Shown here one piece after another: positions 24,872 to 64,000 of a stretch of DNA of 64,000 nt (within the stretch, counting starts at the first letter, position 1; every line of letters starts with the position of its first letter). The stretch is from Filimonas sp. (lineage in GTDB: Bacteria > Bacteroidota > Bacteroidia > Chitinophagales > Chitinophagaceae). The DNA lies in NCBI GenBank assembly GCA_017306865.1, contig JAFKHH010000014.1, positions 372,001 through 436,000 on the forward strand, written 5' to 3'. The notes under the pieces are model-generated. The model ran no database searches and was not told the DNA's origin. It saw only the letters and a program-made list of their open reading frames with translations. The position numbers were made by a program, and so were the translations under genes.

Positions 24872-24961
24872 ATCTGCTTTTAATAATCAAGCAGAGAACC
24901 CGAAACTATTCCGATACATCGGCGTTTGTCAGTTCTGCAAATATTCAAAAAACTGCTGCTG

Positions 24962-25033
<72 letters not shown>

Positions 25034-25042
25034 TTTTTTTAG

Positions 25043-25115
25043 AAGTCATTGAGTCAACGGCCAACGAGTCACTTAGAAAAAAGTCATTTCAAATGACCTA
25101 ATGACTTACTGACTA
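25043..25115. repeat. AAGTCATTGAGTCA-type words between tRNA-Thr and tRNA-Gly
   Basis: Short words AGTCATT, GAGTCA and TGACTTACTGACT repeat on both strands; a central GTCATTT-C-AAATGAC forms a perfect 7-bp hairpin. A further member of the intergenic word families. Confidence 0.6.
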
Positions 25116-25128
25116 AGACCCAGCTTTG

Positions 25129-25201
25129 AGCGGAAGACGAGGGTCGAACCCGCAACCTATAGCTTGGAAGGCTATCGCTCTACCAATTGAGCTACTTCCG
25201 C
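25129..25201 (-). tRNA. tRNA-Gly (TCC)
   Basis: Acceptor GCGGAAG/CTTCCGC, anticodon stem ATAGC/GCTAT around loop CTTCCAA (anticodon TCC), T loop TTCGACC. Confidence 0.95.
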
Positions 25202-25319
25202 GTTTATTTGCCTCGCTGAAAACAGGTGAAATAAGGTGGTGCCTTAAACCTGGTTTCCAGTTGTCAAATTACGTATGCAAAGAACTTTGAGAAACTATCA
25301 ACTGTTTTTTAAACAGCGA

Positions 25320-25360
25320 AGATTTAAAAATTTGAATGGTTACTTCAAATTTTTAAATCT
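25320..25360. repeat. Hairpin between tRNA-Gly and tRNA-Tyr
   Basis: A perfect 17-bp stem (25320-25336 with 25344-25360) with 7-nt loop, in the spacer of the tRNA cluster, 8 nt from the tRNA-Tyr 3' end. It may guide processing or terminate. Confidence 0.75.
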
Positions 25361-25367
25361 GGAACTG

Positions 25368-25450
<83 letters not shown>

Positions 25451-25507
25451 GGTTATTATATTTCATGAGTCGAATACCGAATCACAAATATAAAACTAAG
25501 TTAGAAG

Positions 25508-25580
25508 AGCCACTTGTCGGAATCGAACCAACGACCTACTGATTACAAATCAGTTGCTCTACCAGCTGAGCTAAAGTGGC
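25508..25580 (-). tRNA. tRNA-Thr (TGT)
   Basis: Acceptor GCCACTT/AAGTGGC, anticodon stem ACTGA/TCAGT around loop TTTGTAA (anticodon TGT), T loop TTCGATT. First tRNA of the cluster. Confidence 0.95.
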
Positions 25581-55319: not shown

Positions 55320-56186
55320 TTACTGATAGAAATATTTCAAAATATAGTTTTTATATACCCCTCGCTCGTAGATCTTTTTTGTTCCGCCTGTTGTCAATTT
55401 ATCCTTATTTACATTCAAATGAATCTCTTCAGTAAGATCGGTTGTTCGTAATCGCTCCTTTATTACAATTAATTTTTCCTCGTCAGGCATATCTTTCAAT
55501 TTATCCTTCTCTGCTTGTGTTAAGGGACTGGACATCCAGGCTTTGCTACCAGTCATAATTCCGTCATTGTTATATTCCAAACGTTCCAGTTCCACTCCTG
55601 CTGGTTTAGTTGATATTTGCGTACTACTCAATACCCTTTTCTTTGTTGAATCCATAACAATAGTTGCCTGTAGGAGCAAGTTGCCATCATCATTGTATTT
55701 ATTATGAATCACTACTGAACCATTTGCTGAATAAGATATAACGGTATAATCAGACTGGCTATGTGCCCACACGATCCGGCCTATACTATCACGTTTAATC
55801 GTAGTTACAACAGGCGTTTGATCTTCCTTAAGCAGGTCTATTTCTTTAATGCTGATAAAAGCGCCGGGATCGTAGAAAAAATGTTTTTTAAACTCAACTT
55901 TCTTATCAATGTAAATAGTCTTTACACTCTCTTTCATCTCATTATTATCATCAAAGAATTGCTCATCTTCCCTTGTAACGCCATACCTTGTTCTTTTGCT
56001 CCATATTTTAAAACACTTTCCATTTCTATATTCTGCGATCGATATAGTGTCGGGCTTTCCTTCAGCACTACCCTTATCATTCGCTGGATATTGCACAACT
56101 ATTTTCCGGGAAAACAATTGTTTATCCTGTGCATGCCCACTATAGACAAGAGCAAGAATAAATAAGTGTGTCATAAATATTTTCAT
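55320..56186 (-). CDS. Secreted YD-like paralog B
   Basis: A 288-residue protein with signal peptide (MKIFMTHLFILALVYSGHAQ). Features shared with its paralogs: KIVVQYPAND, GKPDTISIAEYRNGKCFK, DSIGRIVWAHS, YTVISYSANGSVVIHNKYND and the ending GVYKNYILKYFYQ. A Lys/Glu-rich insertion (TQAEKDKLKDMPDEEKL) lies near residue 230. It begins 20 bp after the WG-repeat gene stop and ends 45 bp before paralog C. Confidence 0.75.
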   Translation of the reverse strand: MKIFMTHLFILALVYSGHAQDKQLFSRKIVVQYPANDKGSAEGKPDTISIAEYRNGKCFKIWSKRTRYGVTREDEQFFDDNNEMKESVKTIYIDKKVEFKKHFFYDPGAFISIKEIDLLKEDQTPVVTTIKRDSIGRIVWAHSQSDYTVISYSANGSVVIHNKYNDDGNLLLQATIVMDSTKKRVLSSTQISTKPAGVELERLEYNNDGIMTGSKAWMSSPLTQAEKDKLKDMPDEEKLIVIKERLRTTDLTEEIHLNVNKDKLTTGGTKKIYERGVYKNYILKYFYQ

Positions 56187-56206
56187 ACACGCGATTTTAT
56201 CTATTC

Positions 56207-58900
56207 TTAATAATACCGTCGATTTGATTCTACAGGAGGCGCTACTATTTCAATATCTTTTTTGCCAAGTAATTTTTTAGGAATTGTTTTTTTGTTTTTA
56301 GGCTGATAAACTGGCGGAGCAACTATTTCATTTACACTAGGATAATACGTAATAATCTCTTTTACTTCTATGGAAAGCTCTTTCCCGCCATCTTGCACAT
56401 ACCGAAACTTATCCCCCTTCTTTACCATGGCAGGCATGCGCAACGGCAAATTCTCCCTGTAATACCCATTAACTACATATGCAATATCGTCATACTTACA
56501 TGGCACTATTACTTTTCCCTGTTTGTTTACAATACCCCATTTATCATCCTGCTGCACAATAAAGCCATCTCCTTCTTCATCTATAACAATGTTGTCATAC
56601 GTAGGTTCAAACAAGATGTTACCTGCTGTATCTGCTATTCCCCACTTCTCATTTAAAGGATAATAATTACCTGCCTGGTCAGGCACCCGTTTTACAAGAG
56701 TGAAATATCCGCGCGTAAACAGGTCACGTGACATTTTACCAGCAGGCATATCATACTGAACAGGTATGATAACACGACCAGTAATATCACCAAAACCATA
56801 TTGCATTTTCGTAAATGGAATATCGTTGCTTATGTACGTTTGTTTTTTTTGAAGCAAAATAAAACGATCAGTCAATAGCTCTACGTTGTCATACACACTT
56901 GGTATTACTATATTCCCCAGGCTATCGATGATTCCCTGCTTACCTTTTTGTGTTACAATAGAACAGCTATGCACAAAACCCGATACGCCCGGTATTATCT
57001 TATCACCATAATAGCCGTGCTCTGTAGTAAGATCGTATTCACCAACCAATAACTGGCCGGTAACTACATTCAATAGTTTTACCGTAACGGAATCTATTTC
57101 TACAATAAGCAGTGATGGGTTAAAGCAAGTCCACACATTTTTGTATGGCAATGGAGTTACGCTTCTTGTTTTATAATTAATGAGGTTAAAACCATCAACC
57201 AGGTTTTCACTGCATTGGATAGCGAAGTCATTCCCCATACTTACAATCTCTCCTTTTGCCGGCACAATCGTTTCGCCGGTTACAGAAACAATTCTATCCC
57301 GGGTACGGTTACCATCGTTCGTTATTTCCTGTACCAACAGCAAACTGCTGTCTGCCTCCAATTGGGAGATAGAACCATTTACAGATAATGCTTCTTTACC
57401 TGCTTTTATATTAAACAATATCTCTTTATCTCCTTTAATACCCCGAACCCAATCATTATACCCTTTCAAGGACGAACGCAGGTATGTGTACTCAACTGGC
57501 ATTTTAGCTACGCCATTTTCATCTATCAGACCATATACAGTATCCTTGCGTACTTCAATCAGCCTTTTACCATTGTTAGAATACCTGTCAAACGAAGTAT
57601 AGTCATACTGCGGATCAATGAAGGCGCCTGAGACTGCATTATAAAAGCCGATTTTGTCATTCCGCTCAATAGAAAACAGGGAAGCGAATTCCGAAGTGGT
57701 ACTATCAGGCTGCACTTTAGTTATACTTTGAAAAGCATCCGCAAAAAGAGGTGTTCCATCCATCCTGTAAAGCATGGTATTTTCATTTTCACTATCGCTG
57801 CCTAACACAAGGCTATCACCATAAATACCGCCAATATATTTAAATTTAAATGGCATTATCATTTTTCCTGATTCGTCTGCAATACCAAGCATACTATCTT
57901 TCTCCAGTGCAAAAAGGTGATTGTTATATATTTTAGGCCAGTTACTGTAAACTGGTGTTGCGATGATCTTGCCTGTAGAATCTGCAATTCCATAAAGATC
58001 GTCTTTGCGAATAATAATGTAGGGGTTTGCAGTATCTTCATGGTAACCTGCAAAACGGTTAATATAACTATATACTGTATCCAGAATTAGCTTTCCTTGC
58101 GTATTTACGAGTCCATAATTATCCCCGCTTTTTATACGTTTAAATCCCCAGTCAAAATCATCTTCACAGTCGCACTCATCCGGACATATTGTTTCTGCCT
58201 TTGTATAAATATTTACGACCATATGCTTGCCATTGCGTACAAAGGATGTCACCCATTCGTCGCTTCTTTTTTCAATTTGTGTGTATTCATATTTAAAAGG
58301 TAACAGCTCTTCATTTTTAAAGCTGACTACCCCCCAATTATCACCTTTGCGTGCATATACATAATTCCCAAGGCTATCGCAACCAAAGCAATAATCAAAC
58401 TCATTGTATAACGCAGGTACAACAAACTTCTTATCAGGCTTTAAGTACACACCCCATTTACCATTTTGTTTTACTGCATAGTAATCTTCCTTCAATTTCT
58501 TTATATCCTGAAACTGGAAGCCAAATAAAAAATGCTGATCTATGTACAGATCAGCTTTACCGTTTTGGTAGACCAGGTAAGAAATGCTATCACATTTTTC
58601 TATCTTATCATATATAGCAGGCAATATCCACCGTCCGCTATCTGCTATTATTCCATATTTGTTTCCTTTTATTACTTTGCGCCCTTTAAAGGGTAACGTT
58701 TCGTTGTAGTATGTAACGCTTTCATAATACCAGTCAAACGCATACTTTCCTGTAGTGTCTATATAAAAGGAGCGCTCTTTATTAAGAACCCGCGCAAAGC
58801 CATTGCCAAATAGCGAGCCACCGCTATAAACCTGGGTTTGCGCATTTGTAACTGACGATACCAGAAAATATAACATGCAGCATAACGCGATCTTTTTCAT
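56207..58900 (-). CDS. Secreted WG-repeat protein
   Basis: An 897-residue exported protein (signal peptide MKKIALCCMLYFLVSSVTNA) consisting mostly of about twelve WG (WG/YG beta-hairpin) repeats. Examples: KYGIIADSGRWILPAIYDKI, KWGVYLKPDKKFVVPALYNEF in part, NYGLVNTQGKLILDTVYSYI, KQGIIDSLGNIVIPSVYDNV and KWGIVNKQGKVIVPCKYDDI. It ends with KTIPKKLLGKKDIEIVAPPV. WG repeats are thought to be binding or scaffold modules. It is the largest gene of the cluster and directly precedes paralog B, so it may act with those secreted proteins. Confidence 0.88.
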   Translation of the reverse strand: MKKIALCCMLYFLVSSVTNAQTQVYSGGSLFGNGFARVLNKERSFYIDTTGKYAFDWYYESVTYYNETLPFKGRKVIKGNKYGIIADSGRWILPAIYDKIEKCDSISYLVYQNGKADLYIDQHFLFGFQFQDIKKLKEDYYAVKQNGKWGVYLKPDKKFVVPALYNEFDYCFGCDSLGNYVYARKGDNWGVVSFKNEELLPFKYEYTQIEKRSDEWVTSFVRNGKHMVVNIYTKAETICPDECDCEDDFDWGFKRIKSGDNYGLVNTQGKLILDTVYSYINRFAGYHEDTANPYIIIRKDDLYGIADSTGKIIATPVYSNWPKIYNNHLFALEKDSMLGIADESGKMIMPFKFKYIGGIYGDSLVLGSDSENENTMLYRMDGTPLFADAFQSITKVQPDSTTSEFASLFSIERNDKIGFYNAVSGAFIDPQYDYTSFDRYSNNGKRLIEVRKDTVYGLIDENGVAKMPVEYTYLRSSLKGYNDWVRGIKGDKEILFNIKAGKEALSVNGSISQLEADSSLLLVQEITNDGNRTRDRIVSVTGETIVPAKGEIVSMGNDFAIQCSENLVDGFNLINYKTRSVTPLPYKNVWTCFNPSLLIVEIDSVTVKLLNVVTGQLLVGEYDLTTEHGYYGDKIIPGVSGFVHSCSIVTQKGKQGIIDSLGNIVIPSVYDNVELLTDRFILLQKKQTYISNDIPFTKMQYGFGDITGRVIIPVQYDMPAGKMSRDLFTRGYFTLVKRVPDQAGNYYPLNEKWGIADTAGNILFEPTYDNIVIDEEGDGFIVQQDDKWGIVNKQGKVIVPCKYDDIAYVVNGYYRENLPLRMPAMVKKGDKFRYVQDGGKELSIEVKEIITYYPSVNEIVAPPVYQPKNKKTIPKKLLGKKDIEIVAPPVESNRRYY

Positions 58901-58961
58901 AAGTTAACTTTTGAATACAGCTTATCACCCCATGAAATCTCAAGGGTTAACAGAAATTATT

Positions 58962-59429
58962 TTATAATAAAAACAATGCTTTTTTGTCTTCGTAATAATT
59001 GCTTGAAAAACATTCCTGGTGAACATAGCGCTCAAGTAATTTTATTATTTCCTTTGATTGCTCAAGTCCATAATAATTGACTTTTATCCACATACTGTCA
59101 TCCAGGGTACGGATGACAATTGTTTTCTCCTGCGATTTGCCAAGGGTAGCGAAATAGACAGAAAATATATCATCCCATTTATAATCCTTATCATCTATTT
59201 TTCCTTGGCATCTTATGCTTTTATCATTGATAATAACGGATGTGCCAGTATAGACCCATAACCCCAACATTGTAACGGATGAGATAATAATAATCATAAA
59301 AGGAAACACTGCGTCTCCAACAGGCTTGACAAGAAAAACAAAAGAAAACACAACCAGGCACAGAAATACAGCAATAATAACCCGTATAAAAATTCGGCCG
59401 CCTTTCGTCATAGTAAATCTATATTCCAT
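58962..59429 (-). CDS. Small membrane protein with PH-like C-terminal domain
   Basis: A 155-residue protein with two N-terminal membrane helices (VIIAVFLCLVVFSFVFLV, FPFMIIIISSVTMLGLWVY) and a cytoplasmic C-terminal domain. That domain has a strand-rich pattern (SVIINDKSIRCQGK, YKWDDIFSVYFATLG, KTIVIRTLDDSMWIKV) and a final helix (SKEIIKLLERYV), like bacterial PH or YcxB-type domains. Function unknown. Between paralog A and the WG-repeat gene on the same strand. Confidence 0.65.
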   Translation of the reverse strand: MEYRFTMTKGGRIFIRVIIAVFLCLVVFSFVFLVKPVGDAVFPFMIIIISSVTMLGLWVYTGTSVIINDKSIRCQGKIDDKDYKWDDIFSVYFATLGKSQEKTIVIRTLDDSMWIKVNYYGLEQSKEIIKLLERYVHQECFSSNYYEDKKALFLL

Positions 59430-59508
59430 CTCTTACGTGTTTTCTACCTTACTGGGCAGAATAACGATTTCTTTTCAGAAGCTATTGTCACATTGAGGTT
59501 GTTAAATT

Positions 59509-60372
59509 TTACTCATATACAAACTTCAAGATGTAATTATCCTCTTCACCATCCTCCTTATACACCCGGTTTATCCCTCTTTCCCGCAATCCTTTTTTAT
59601 CAAAAGTGTTATAGGTTTCCTGTTGTACTTTGGCTTGCGGATAATATTTCATTACCTCTTGCAACATATTTTCTTTCCCTGCTTTTAGGATAAAGCTTGT
59701 TTGAAGAGAGTCCAGGTGGATTGACATTTCTTTAGTACTGATCTGTTCATTCTTTTCCGTCCATTCCGATTCCTGCCAGAAAATATCTGTATTGTTGCCA
59801 AGGAAAGTTGCAGAGACTGAATAGATCACACGATTGCCTGCAGGATTCATTACAAGGCTATCGATCCCGGTTATTTTATTACCAGCCAGATCATACCGTG
59901 TATATACAATGCTTCTTTCACCATTTGAATAGGAGATCATTTCTTTCTTATTCGCAACCACAGATACTACAATCCTTCCGCTATTGTCATAAGTCAATTT
60001 TGGAACGATGGCCTCGCCTTTGCCCAAAAGATCGATCTCCTTTGTTACAATCCGGGCATATTTGTCGTAAAACGAGCGGACATGAAGAGAGGGTGCTTCA
60101 TTTTCTTTTGATACAATAACATCTCCTTCTTTCACCTTTCCGTCAGTATCAAAAACATAATTTTTTTGATAGATTATCCTGGCTGCTCTCTTTTCTCTAT
60201 AGTAGCCTTTTACACACCTTCCATTTTCGTATTCTTCAATGGAAAGTGTGTCGGACAATTTCGTATCCGGCTTTTCCTGTATGGGATAAGCTATACATAT
60301 AACACGTGAAGGGGATTGTCCATAAGAGAGCGTTACTATACATGATAGGATCACCACGCCGCACCATTTCAT
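59509..60372 (-). CDS. Secreted YD-like paralog A
   Basis: From the ATG at 60372 it has 287 residues with signal peptide (MKWCGVVILSCIVTLSYGQ). Shared features: RVICIAYPIQEKPDTKLSDTLS in part, EEYENGRCVKGY, DNSGRIVVSVV, EMISYSNGERSIVYTRYD and the ending EDNYILKFVYE. First gene of the five-gene minus-strand cluster; an alternative ATG is at 60381. Similarity to paralogs B and C is clear at the two ends and in the DxxGRIV block, weaker between. Confidence 0.75.
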   Translation of the reverse strand: MKWCGVVILSCIVTLSYGQSPSRVICIAYPIQEKPDTKLSDTLSIEEYENGRCVKGYYREKRAARIIYQKNYVFDTDGKVKEGDVIVSKENEAPSLHVRSFYDKYARIVTKEIDLLGKGEAIVPKLTYDNSGRIVVSVVANKKEMISYSNGERSIVYTRYDLAGNKITGIDSLVMNPAGNRVIYSVSATFLGNNTDIFWQESEWTEKNEQISTKEMSIHLDSLQTSFILKAGKENMLQEVMKYYPQAKVQQETYNTFDKKGLRERGINRVYKEDGEEDNYILKFVYE

Positions 60373-60571
60373 CAGGCACATAAGATTCTTTACTAATTAG
60401 TCCGACTGTAAACGTAGAATAAGAAAATACTATTGCCATTTACGCATTTGACAAATACAAATCCTTTTTTAACATTTATGCTCACCCGAGAATGGCAAAG
60501 CTTAAAAACAATACAAAATCTACATAAAAGACTATTTCTTTAGAATTTATTCAAATATTTCAAACTAACGA

Positions 60572-60601
60572 TTGTTGTTATCAAATAGCTGACTATATTC
60601 G
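60572..60601 (+). promoter_or_regulatory. Candidate promoter of the thr operon
   Basis: TTG (60572-60574), a 19-bp spacer and TATATTCG (60594-60601), one mismatch from TAnnTTTG, would start transcription about 10 nt before the leader-peptide ATG. Confidence 0.5.
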
Positions 60602-60616
60602 TCCTGCTTAAAAATA

Positions 60617-60706
60617 ATGGTAAAGCATATTAACGATATCACATCTCCTTTCACTTCCGTAGCCGGGAACGGGACTACGATTATTACCATTATTACAACC
60701 CTGTAA
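60617..60706 (+). CDS. thrL: Threonine operon leader peptide (29 aa, Thr/Ile run)
   Basis: The ORF ATG 60617 to TAA 60704 encodes 29 residues beginning MVKHINDITSPF and containing TTIITIITT at positions 20-28 immediately before the C-terminal Leu. Seven Thr and six Ile codons in 29, clustered just before the stop, are the hallmark of transcription-attenuation leaders; E. coli ThrL has the same Thr/Ile mix because both amino acids derive from the pathway. It precedes thrA by 125 bp. RNA pairings that could switch: CTACGA (60675-60680) with TCGTAG (60741-60746), against ATTACC (60683-60688) with GGTAAT (60709-60714) and ACCC (60698-60701) with GGGT (60708-60711). I do not see a classical GC hairpin with T run, so the mechanism could be translational. 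Confidence 0.75.
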   Translation: MVKHINDITSPFTSVAGNGTTIITIITTL

Positions 60707-60831
60707 AGGGTAATACATTAATATATCGCCACCTGGGCTCTCGTAGCTGTACTTCAACCAAAGGTTGATCAAACTCACAACAATTTTATTCAAGCATCAA
60801 AATCAAATCTCCCTAGCGGGAACGGAATTAT
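60707..60831 (+). promoter_or_regulatory. thr leader RNA downstream of the leader ORF
   Basis: Contains TCAACC-AAA-GGTTGA (60754-60768), a TCCC-TAGC-GGGA hairpin (60810-60821) ending 10 nt before the thrA ATG, and GGGAACGG (60818-60825), which duplicates 60665-60672 inside the leader ORF. The hairpin over the ribosome-binding region could control thrA translation; this is inference. Confidence 0.4.
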
Positions 60832-63276
60832 ATGAAAGTTCTAAAATTCGGCGGCTCCTCCGTTGCAAATGCCGAGAATATCCAAAAGGTCGTAAACATC
60901 GTAAAGACAAACAGTGAATCACAGGTAGTTGTAGTATCTGCATTAGGTGGGGTAACGGATCAATTGATTCTCGCGGGGACATTGGCTGAAAAAACAGACG
61001 AAGCATATAAAGATGTTTTGCAGCAACTGGAGAAAAAACACCTGGATGCAGTGCGTGCATTGTTACCTGTGGCTCACCAGAGCAGTAGCCTGAGTATGAT
61101 CAAACAGCACTTCAATGAACTGGAAGAAGTATGTAATAGTGTTTTCTACCTGAAAGAGTTATCACTTCGTACCAAAGATCGCATTATCAGCTTTGGCGAA
61201 CTGTTGTCTTCTAAGATCATTTCTGCTTTTATGCAATCTCAAAACCTGGTACATGAGTGGGTTGATTCACGTAGTGTGATCAAAACAAACAGCAACTTTG
61301 GCTTTGCAGCAGTAGATTTTCCAGCTACGAACAAATTAATTGAAGCAGCAGTTAAAAATGCTGACAAACAATTATTCTTAGCCCCGGGTTTTATATCCAG
61401 CGATAGTAATAATAATACGACCACATTAGGCCGCGGTGGTTCTGACTATACGGCTGCCATCTTCGCTGCTGCTGTGAATGCAAGTTCCCTGGAAATATGG
61501 ACAGATGTAACCGGCATGATGACGGCAGACCCACGCTGGGTGCTTAATGCTAAAACGATAAACCGTACATCTTACCAGGAAGCAATGGAGCTTTCACACT
61601 TTGGTGCAAAGGTGATCTATCCACCTACCATACAGCCGGTAATGCAACGCAACATACCTACATGGGTAAAAAATACGTTTGCGCCGGCAGAAGCAGGCAC
61701 TGTAATAGAGAACGCAGAGCAGCATGATGGCGAGATCATCACAGGTATATCCAGCATCAACAGTGTGGCTTTGTTAAGCCTTGAAGGCGCAGGAATGGTG
61801 GGCATACCAGGATTTTCAAAGCGATTGTTTGAGGCACTGGCAAGTGAGAAGATCAATGTTATACTGATCACACAAAGTTCATCAGAACACTCTATCTGCG
61901 TAGCGGTAAATACGGCAGATGCGGCTAAAGCAAAGGAAGCGATAGACCGTGCTTTTGAAACAGAGATCAGCCAGCGTAAGGTAGAGCCTTTACGTGTGGA
62001 AACAGATCTTGCAATCATAGCACTGGTTGGCGATAAGATGAAAAGTCACCCTGGCATAAGCGGTAGAATGTTTGGTGCACTAGGACGTAACGGCATCAAT
62101 GTACGTGCTATAGCACAAGGTTCTTCTGAAAGAAATATCTCTACTGTAATAGCGGCAGCGGATGTAAAAAAAGGCGTGAATGTATTGCATGAGGCGTTTT
62201 TTGAAGCGTCTTATAAGCAATTGAACGTTTTCATAGTTGGTGTAGGAAATGTTGGCGGAAAGCTAATGGACCAGATCAAACAACAGAAACAGTTCCTGCT
62301 GGAGCATTTGAACCTGCAACTGCGTGTTACAGGCATCAGTAACAGTAAGAACATGCTGTTTGTAGAAAATGGTAATGAGATAGACCTGGATAACTGGAAG
62401 GAAGCATTGGCTGCTGCACCTGCCACTAACCTGGATGAGCTGGTACAAACAGTAATAGATAAGAACCTGCGTAACTCTGTGTTTGTAGATGTAACCGCGA
62501 ATGCTGAAGTGGCTGCGGTATATGGCAAGCTGCTTGCAAAAACGGTTTCTGTAGTTGCATGTAACAAGATAGCGGCTTCCTCTTCATACGAAAGCTATAG
62601 CAGGCTGAAATCTCTTGCGAAAGAATATAATGCGCAATTCCGTTTTGAAACAAACGTGGGTGCAGGACTACCGGTAATAGGCACATTAAATGACCTGAGA
62701 AGAAGTGGCGATAAGGTAAATAAAATAGAAGCAGTACTATCCGGTACATTAAACTTCGTGTTTAATAACTATGACGGTAAACGCTCTTTTGCAGAAGTGG
62801 TAAAACAGGCACAGGACGAGGGTTATACAGAACCAGATCCACGCCTGGACCTGGGTGGTACGGATGTAATGCGTAAAATTATGATACTCGCACGCGAAGC
62901 TGGTGAGCGTATAGAAATGGATGACATTACTAACAATGGTTTCTTACCGGCTACATGTTTTGATGGCAGTGTGGATGATTTTTATAAAGAAATGGCAAAA
63001 CAGGAAGCGCACTTCAAAGCTATCTATGAAGAAGCGGCAGCGAAGAACTGTAAGCTGAAATTTGTAGCGAGCTTCGAAAATGGCAAAGCGTCTGTTGGCT
63101 TAAGACATATACCGGACAACTCAGACTTCTATCACTTATACGGCAAGGACAACATTGTATTGTTTTCTACCCAACGTTACCCTGAACAGCCATTGGTTGT
63201 AAAAGGCGCTGGCGCTGGCGCAGACGTAACAGCAAGCGGTGTATTTGCGGATATATTGAGGGTGGTGGCGCCGTAA
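60832..63276 (+). CDS. thrA: Bifunctional aspartokinase / homoserine dehydrogenase
   Basis: An 814-residue fusion that catalyses the first and third steps from aspartate toward threonine, methionine and isoleucine. Aspartokinase half (1-290): KFGGSSVANAENI, RGGSDYTAAI, WTDVTGMMTADPR. Two ACT-type regulatory regions follow (AGMVGIPGFSKRLFEALA near 325, GDKMKSHPGISGRMFGALGRNGINV in part near 405) and would bind Thr. Homoserine dehydrogenase half (from about 465): NAD-binding VFIVGVGNVGGKL, CNKIAASS, ETNVGAGLPVIGTLNDL and GYTEPDPRLDLGGTDVMRKI in part. Same length and order as E. coli ThrA. First structural gene of the thr operon. Confidence 0.96.
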   Translation: MKVLKFGGSSVANAENIQKVVNIVKTNSESQVVVVSALGGVTDQLILAGTLAEKTDEAYKDVLQQLEKKHLDAVRALLPVAHQSSSLSMIKQHFNELEEVCNSVFYLKELSLRTKDRIISFGELLSSKIISAFMQSQNLVHEWVDSRSVIKTNSNFGFAAVDFPATNKLIEAAVKNADKQLFLAPGFISSDSNNNTTTLGRGGSDYTAAIFAAAVNASSLEIWTDVTGMMTADPRWVLNAKTINRTSYQEAMELSHFGAKVIYPPTIQPVMQRNIPTWVKNTFAPAEAGTVIENAEQHDGEIITGISSINSVALLSLEGAGMVGIPGFSKRLFEALASEKINVILITQSSSEHSICVAVNTADAAKAKEAIDRAFETEISQRKVEPLRVETDLAIIALVGDKMKSHPGISGRMFGALGRNGINVRAIAQGSSERNISTVIAAADVKKGVNVLHEAFFEASYKQLNVFIVGVGNVGGKLMDQIKQQKQFLLEHLNLQLRVTGISNSKNMLFVENGNEIDLDNWKEALAAAPATNLDELVQTVIDKNLRNSVFVDVTANAEVAAVYGKLLAKTVSVVACNKIAASSSYESYSRLKSLAKEYNAQFRFETNVGAGLPVIGTLNDLRRSGDKVNKIEAVLSGTLNFVFNNYDGKRSFAEVVKQAQDEGYTEPDPRLDLGGTDVMRKIMILAREAGERIEMDDITNNGFLPATCFDGSVDDFYKEMAKQEAHFKAIYEEAAAKNCKLKFVASFENGKASVGLRHIPDNSDFYHLYGKDNIVLFSTQRYPEQPLVVKGAGAGADVTASGVFADILRVVAP

Positions 63277-63387: not shown

Positions 63388-64000
63388 ATGAGTCATAAAA
63401 AAGTAATTGTCAACCCACCTGCAACAGTTGCAAATGTTGTTTGTGGTTTTGATATACTGGGTTTTGCGCTGAATGAGCCCTGTGATGAATTACAATTGGA
63501 ACTTAGCGATGAAGCAGGTGTACAGATTGTAAACAATGATGAATACAATCTTCCACTAGACCCAGAAAAAAATGTAAGTGGCGCAGCGCTGCTGGCTTTA
63601 CTTGATGCAGCACCTGATGTAAAGGGCATTAAGCTTACCAGCAAAAAGATCATTAAACCGGGCAGTGGCATCGGATCCAGCGCAGCAAGCGCAGCCGGGG
63701 CTGTTGTTGGGGTAAATCATTTGCTAGATAACCGCTTTACCAAAGAAGAACTGGTACAGTTCGCTATGTTTGGTGAGAAGGTAGCAAGTGGTGTAAAACA
63801 CGCGGACAACATAGCTCCCTGCATCTATGGTGGGGTTACACTTATCCGTTCCATATTACCATTAGACATTATCAGCCTTGATGCACCTACACTTCATGTA
63901 ACGGTAGTGCATCCGCAAATAGAGGTGAAAACTGCCGATGCGAGACAAATACTGAAACAACAGGTATTACTAAAAGATGCGATCAAACAGTGGGGAAATA
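63388..64000 (+). CDS. thrB: Homoserine kinase, 3' truncated by window edge
   Basis: GHMP-family kinase phosphorylating homoserine. From the ATG at 63388 the frame stays open to the right edge (204 codons visible of about 305). It begins MSHKKVIVNPPATVANVVCGFDILGFAL, the ThrB N terminus (given in parts elsewhere), and has the GHMP ATP-binding motif PGSGIGSSAASAAGAV near residue 92 and GVKHADNIAPCIYGGVTL near 135. It follows thrA by 111 bp in the order thrL-thrA-thrB; thrC would be expected beyond the edge. Confidence 0.93.
   Translation, partial: MSHKKVIVNPPATVANVVCGFDILGFALNEPCDELQLELSDEAGVQIVNNDEYNLPLDPEKNVSGAALLALLDAAPDVKGIKLTSKKIIKPGSGIGSSAASAAGAVVGVNHLLDNRFTKEELVQFAMFGEKVASGVKHADNIAPCIYGGVTLIRSILPLDIISLDAPTLHVTVVHPQIEVKTADARQILKQQVLLKDAIKQWGN

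Follow-up and report, generated by a model that had tools for sequence, protein, structure and literature searches.

A short open reading frame (ORF) with a run of threonine and isoleucine codons close to its end stands in front of thrA in the genome of a Filimonas species, and its leader carries no canonical intrinsic terminator. What kind of element is this leader, and how could it control the genes behind it? We analyzed the 64,000-nucleotide stretch of DNA that contains the locus (the window), together with the rest of the genome, other genomes of the family and the phylum Bacteroidota. A first-pass annotation of the window had read the ORF as an attenuation peptide, with mutually exclusive RNA pairings in its leader and possibly a translational variant of the ThrL mechanism.

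The thr operon and its promoter

We take the regulated gene, at 60832..63276 (+ strand), to be thrA, encoding a bifunctional aspartokinase/homoserine dehydrogenase. The next gene starts at 63388 and runs off the window (63388..63999, + strand); its sequence is presumably that of a thrB-like homoserine kinase. Because the thrB-like gene comes after thrA, we assign the locus to a thr operon. Upstream of the leader, a -7 promoter box of the Bacteroidota type TAnnTTTG, TATATTCG, is located at 60594..60601 (+ strand). In 22 of the leaders examined, a box of this kind precedes the leader ATG by 8-18 nt; in the window and in these relatives alike, the ORF is placed downstream of a promoter-like box. 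Transcription is expected to start a few nucleotides past the box, which would leave a very short 5' UTR.

A dyad, ACTAAC-GAT-TGTT(G), at 60564..60577 (+ strand) overlaps the presumed -33 region. In the window and at least 12 relatives, the sequence ACTAACRMTTGTT precedes the start of the leader by 46-54 nt, and the dyad pattern ACTAACGNTTGTT has just two exact occurrences in the genome. Written as ACTAAC-GNT-TGTTA, the dyad marks the -33 region of the promoter in the window and in about a dozen relatives. It presumably has a role at the promoter and could be an operator.

The window contains other features of note. A tRNA cluster, Thr(TGT)-Tyr-Gly-Thr(GGT), lies at 24961-25580 on the - strand. 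Upstream of the thr operon, at 55320-60381 on the - strand, two secreted proteins of 288 and 290 residues, possibly paralogous, flank an 897-residue repeat protein whose repeats look WG-type by eye.

The leader peptide and its codon run

The leader ORF occupies 60617-60706 (+ strand), with 29 sense codons encoding MVKHINDITSPFTSVAGNGTTIITIITTL and a TAA stop codon at 60704-60706; the spacer between the stop codon and the thrA ATG (60832) is 125 nt. The short ORF in front of thrA was thus annotated correctly. Its run of nine Thr/Ile codons, ACT ACG ATT ATT ACC ATT ATT ACA ACC (60674..60700, + strand), is also present as claimed. It does not lie directly before the stop codon, since one Leu codon (CTG) intervenes. 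Among ATG-initiated ORFs of 15-61 residues, the leader ORF alone in the window has at least eight Thr/Ile codons in nine, and none was found in 20 Markov-simulated windows.

To place the run in a wider context, we gathered relatives by their thrA protein, which gave 80 loci, 78 of them with enough upstream DNA. In 59 of the 78, thrA is preceded by a short ORF whose product ends in a Thr/Ile run, and the leader ORF is thus conserved in many relatives. In eight loci (L042, L043, L044, L049, L050, L052, L074 and L077) thrA stands directly behind another gene and there is no leader at that place; the C-terminus of the preceding gene resembles threonine dehydratase in these loci. We also assembled 105 leaders (86 from the family and 19 distant) by a search that required a stop-codon hairpin and Thr/Ile codons. 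In this set, codons -10 to -2 are 65% Thr and 20% Ile (85% together), compared with 13% and 12% (25% together) in the remaining peptide. All four Thr codons (ACA, ACC, ACT and ACG) are in use with third positions free, and the final codon is invariably Arg, Leu or Pro. Since Thr and Ile are enriched while all four Thr codons occur, the run is under selection at the amino acid level, as expected of a Thr/Ile leader peptide. Threonine is the precursor of isoleucine, which explains why the two are grouped in one run. Judged by these sequence patterns, the element is almost certainly a Thr/Ile-sensing leader peptide in which the ribosome senses threonine.

A covariance model of the end part of the leader (R1) gave exactly one strong match in the genome. 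Within the family, 86 of 149 genomes have a match at E <= 2.1e-8. In the phylum, 37 of 395 genomes have one at E < 1e-4, including families f4 and f5 and, in another class, f24. All strong matches fetched from the phylum search (L081, L083-L111) stand before thrA. The weakest matches in the lists include chance matches, and the other matches in the window look like chance as well (34196 and weaker ones; inspection covered 34196). No Rfam family matches at the gathering score, and none matches the leader region even at E <= 10; the Thr_leader model (RF00506) has no match to the thr leader and the Bacteroid-trp model (RF01692) none in the genome.

A hairpin around the stop codon

The end of the Thr/Ile run and the stop codon together form a hairpin, P2, which reads ACCCU-GUAA-AGGGU in the window (60698..60711, + strand) and ACAACCC-GUUAA-GGGUUGU in typical leaders. 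P2 changes on both sides of its pairs, for instance to AAUCCGC-UAA-GCGGAUU or UACCC-GGGUA. The pairing energy of its arms is far better within than between leaders (z -10.7 overall and -7.9 within the family), and the region folds far more strongly than shuffled sequences (z -3.7, t -31). In three relatives of family f8 (L218, L219 and L250) the CCC/GGG arms are inverted, with GGG on the 5' side and CCC 3' of the stop codon. P2 is kept in these relatives and its U-rich tail is absent, and two of the three (L219 and L250) have lost the box described below. The frequency of P2 in the 105 leaders is no estimate of its occurrence, since selection of the set required a stop-codon hairpin, and the underlying alignment (A1) was built from loci found by the same approach. 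The permutation and shuffle figures here and below overstate independence, as the sequences are related. The more independent evidence comes from the 78-locus ORF survey, in which the hairpin was not required, and from the inversion in f8.

P2 is not a canonical terminator. The annotation had found no obvious intrinsic terminator, and we likewise found none on the + strand of the leader in the window. Where relatives have a terminator-like site at all, P2 itself nearly always provides it, followed by a U-rich tail that is imperfect; in most family members the tail is not a proper U-tract. Such P2-type sites are found in 16 of the 19 distant and 20 of the 86 family leaders, against 0.2 and 1.5 after full shuffling, which destroys P2 too. 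The upstream regions of hisG in the family have a terminator-like site in 28 of 30 cases, and the mean minimum free energy (MFE) of P2 is about -10 kcal/mol, compared with -14 kcal/mol for the his terminators.

A sequence box at two fixed positions

A second conserved element is an unpaired box with the consensus CATATYAYC, which occurs twice. The 3' box in the window, TATATCGCC (60722..60730, + strand), lies at stop+18, and the 5' box, GATATCACA (60635..60643, + strand), at ATG+18. The window copies, at 60722 and 60635, are weaker ones, and an additional near-copy, CATATTAAC, is found at 60626..60634 (+ strand). The 3' box starts 16-20 nt past the stop codon in 103 of the 105 leaders. Its distance is 11.2 nt from the P2 G-core with a standard deviation (sd) of 0.61, compared with an sd of 0.89 when measured from the stop codon. 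The region of the 3' box is less structured than shuffled sequences, and words complementary to the box occur within the leader in just 0-7 of the 105. In 59 of 78 leaders, the site that fits the 5' box best lies at ATG+16 to +19. Strong matches within +15 to +20 occur in 46 leaders, compared with 2.5 in shuffles. These 46 occupy all three reading frames (29, 11 and 6), so the 5' box is conserved as nucleotides, and a peptide-level HII motif as its sole cause is rejected. The distance of the 5' box has an sd of 0.64 to the ATG and 2.1 to the -7 box, although the preselection at +15 to +20 favors the first figure. A promoter-proximal pause set by the transcription start was rejected because the box tracks the ATG rather than the promoter.

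Several other roles for the box were considered. The two tRNA-Thr genes of the window begin GCCGTTGTAG and GCCACTTTAG, so that pairing of tRNA-Thr with the box was rejected, as was pairing between the box and the thrA start (z +0.3). The box does not appear to be a general attenuator element, since none was seen when the family's ilv and his leaders were inspected, and CATATC in the his leaders is explained by His codons.

By sequence comparison, the conserved core of the leader consists of the unpaired box and the strongly covarying P2, in which the stop codon lies together with the last Thr codons. The mechanism drawn in the first-pass annotation included neither the stop-codon hairpin nor the duplicated box.

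Proposed mechanism

We propose, with about even confidence, that this is a ribosome-controlled leader through which the thrA operon senses how far tRNA-Thr (and tRNA-Ile) is charged, by means of P2 and a pause or weak terminator at the box. Transcription would begin a few nucleotides before the leader ORF. The run comes right at the end of the ORF, and its last codons therefore make up P2 together with the stop codon. When threonine is sufficient, the ribosome would get to the stop codon and depart, and P2 would close; together with the AU-rich box, closed P2 would act as a factor-dependent pause or a weak terminator that halts transcription. When threonine is short, a ribosome paused on most of the run codons would cover the 5' arm of P2 and keep it open. 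We infer the direction of regulation, the masking by the ribosome and the halting of polymerase at the box from the arrangement of these elements. P2 stands at a fixed 11-12 nt before the box, which would suit a hairpin acting on a polymerase halted there; this is the spacing of pause or terminator hairpins. At the 5' box, 18 nt past the start codon, polymerase would be held just when that codon emerges, allowing the first ribosome to load.

A more specific reading, in which we place somewhat less than even confidence, is that the box acts as a sequence-specific signal for pausing or recognition, about 18 nt from both start and stop, that synchronizes polymerase and ribosome twice. Together with the stop-codon hairpin it would define a terminator-less class of amino acid attenuators present across classes of Bacteroidota.

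Some observations argue against the proposed mechanism. If the ribosome halted at the first or second codon of the run, P2 would remain free. The conserved element GGGC...GCUG, which contains the hairpin P3 and lies downstream of the supposed stop site, is unaccounted for. The like offsets of the box from start and stop could also mean recognition at the edge of the ribosome rather than by polymerase. Finally, P2 is weaker than the his terminators, and the f8 relatives lack the U-rich tail and, in two of three, the box, as described above.

Alternative explanations

With no intrinsic terminator in the leader, termination could depend on Rho: the ribosome would leave at the stop codon, and Rho would load on the G-poor spacer and terminate transcription before thrA, with P2 and the box timing the event. 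The spacer is indeed G-poor, with C 16.3% and G 10.6%; the control, DNA in front of other ORFs, has C 17.3% and G 15.4%. C is not enriched over this control, and the spacer can be very short. The anatomy is like that of the mycobacterial cys leaders, in which the codon run also lies near the stop codon with no terminator and for which Rho-dependent attenuation has been proposed (PMC1262725); in those leaders no conserved terminator-type hairpin is found and no such box is described. Rho would leave the fixed positions of the box unexplained, and the genome itself uses intrinsic terminators for ilv and his. We consider this mechanism unlikely.

A classical three-part attenuator is also improbable. 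It would use P1 and P3 as alternative partners, and a weak downstream hairpin would terminate transcription. P1 is predicted within the ORF, where it lies mostly ahead of the Thr/Ile run and reaches into it (60658..60679, + strand), by the MFE fold and by the folding profile of the family (z -1.4, t -8); its arms coevolve overall (z -3.5) and weakly in the family alone (z -1.1). P3 is a small hairpin, GGCU-CUCGU-AGCU (60736..60748, + strand), seen in the sequence logo and in the coevolution of its arms (z -3.0 to -3.5). The 6-bp pair between them that the annotation had proposed as mutually exclusive (60675-60680/60741-60746) can form in the window, and relatives show P1 x P3 complementarity (z -2.9 overall, -2.4 in the family; -3.3/-2.8 for the P1 5' arm with the P3 3' arm). 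Relatedness inflates these z values, however, and the register differs between species with none in common; the claimed pair is present in the window, and P1-P3 pairing is weakly supported in relatives. In addition, the very short leader peptides (L028, L031, L037 and L045) leave P1 little room in the ORF. P3 was rejected as a terminator, as no U-tract follows it (T 0.35, compared with 0.37 in the background). A further hairpin in the MFE fold, P4 (UCAACC-AAA-GGUUGA, 60754..60768, + strand), has counterparts of different sequence in relatives by eye, with a clear folding signal in the distant group only.

The box could instead be the site of a trans-acting factor (an RNA-binding protein, a small RNA or the ribosome) that acts when a ribosome stands at the start or stop codon, with control exerted post-transcriptionally or on ribosome progress. 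A box that is conserved in sequence, unpaired and without a complement in cis would suit such a factor. Its position about 17-18 nt past both start and stop points the same way, as it is near the expected edge of a ribosome at either codon. No candidate factor emerged, the two tRNA-Thr genes of the window fail to match the box, and the distance of the 3' box is more constant from P2 than from the stop codon. The chance that this explanation is right is in our view small.

Leader regulation of translation is known in other systems, and translational attenuation would have the leader govern access to the thrA start or re-initiation there. The annotation had pointed to a hairpin over the thrA ribosome-binding region; its TCCC/GGGA arms (60810-60821) are present in the window, but no such hairpin was seen in common among relatives. 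Shuffled leaders have a less open thrA start than the real ones (unpaired 0.45 compared with 0.57), and for no leader segment does coevolution with the start exceed z -1.8. An ORF runs into thrA in 13 of 105 leaders, fewer than the 23.6 obtained with shuffled spacers, and neither a sequestered thrA start nor a coupled second ORF was found in the thr leaders. Because the thrA start is open, with no clear coevolving partner and no coupled ORF, translational control by the leader is unlikely, and the suggested translational variant of ThrL finds little to support it; we hold this reading to be very improbable. That the box copies are DNA operator sites of a transcription factor and the peptide incidental, as two copies of one box and the separate dyad at the promoter might suggest, can be practically dismissed, as the copies are fixed relative to the start codon and P2, and are always on the same strand, and the Thr/Ile run and P2 would remain unexplained.

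Comparison with other leaders

The ribosome-controlled leader that we favor shares with E. coli ThrL (RF00506) a short peptide with a Thr/Ile run before thrA of a thr operon. Unlike ThrL, it has no Rfam match and no U-tract terminator, its run ends one codon before the stop, the stop codon lies in a hairpin loop and the CATATYAYC box is duplicated. Within the same class of Bacteroidota, the thr leaders of another family, f3 (L209-L212), also place a Thr/Ile leader before thrA. Their run is early or central, a GGAAGGC-type or similar terminator with a U-tract is located further down, and no box was seen. One class thus contains two thr leader designs, a canonical-looking one in f3 and the type with P2 and box.

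In the same genome and family, the ilv and his operons are likewise preceded by leader peptides, and their leaders have the look of canonical attenuators, in which the terminators are strong and have U-tracts. Ile/Val-rich leader peptides with a strong terminator precede ilvD in L169 (C1 of the Filimonas genome), L150, L152, L163 and L173; the first is ordinary-looking, with the leader MLRSKLNNVITNNAIIIVVVVIIIPALLGGG and the terminator GCCCGCCTCGTAAGAGCGGGCTTTTTT. His-rich leader peptides with a terminator precede hisG in L247 (C1:522500-523100 of the Filimonas genome) and L178-L206. Both groups are apparently canonical. Since these leaders and the f3 thr leaders look ordinary, the unusual design is specific to this thr leader type. 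Among leader RNAs of Bacteroidota, Bacteroid-trp RNA (RF01692) also precedes an amino acid operon; it has early Trp codons and a normal terminator, and is absent from this genome.

In the E. coli pyrBI leader, a ribosome translating the leader ORF directly blocks a hairpin in that ORF, as we propose here for P2; pyrBI differs in sensing UTP by polymerase pausing and in having a normal terminator. In actinobacterial ilvB leaders the regulatory codon run overlaps the terminator hairpin, much as the run overlaps the candidate hairpin here, but those leaders belong to another phylum and have poly-U runs, and no such box is described in them (Seliverstov et al., 2005; PMC1262725). In the transcriptome of Flavobacterium psychrophilum, strong clues pointed to attenuation by leader peptides in front of operons for amino acid biosynthesis, with thr unnamed in the main text (PMC9723704). 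An earlier description of part of the thr leader is possible. A comparative study by Vitreschak and colleagues from 2004 reportedly mentions attenuators in Bacteroidetes. We found no description of the stop-codon hairpin or the duplicated box in the literature, and the leader would appear to represent a new, terminator-less variant of ThrL-type attenuation that combines the two.

The control of amino acid operons in Bacteroidota has been little studied, and this leader provides a conserved and easily tested case. The same genome has canonical attenuators for ilv and his and a different design for thr, and leader searches based on terminators will overlook elements of such a design. The box at matching distances from the start and stop codons connects the position of the ribosome with transcription in a specific way that can be tested, and it may reveal a pause signal or a factor of the Bacteroidota RNA polymerase.
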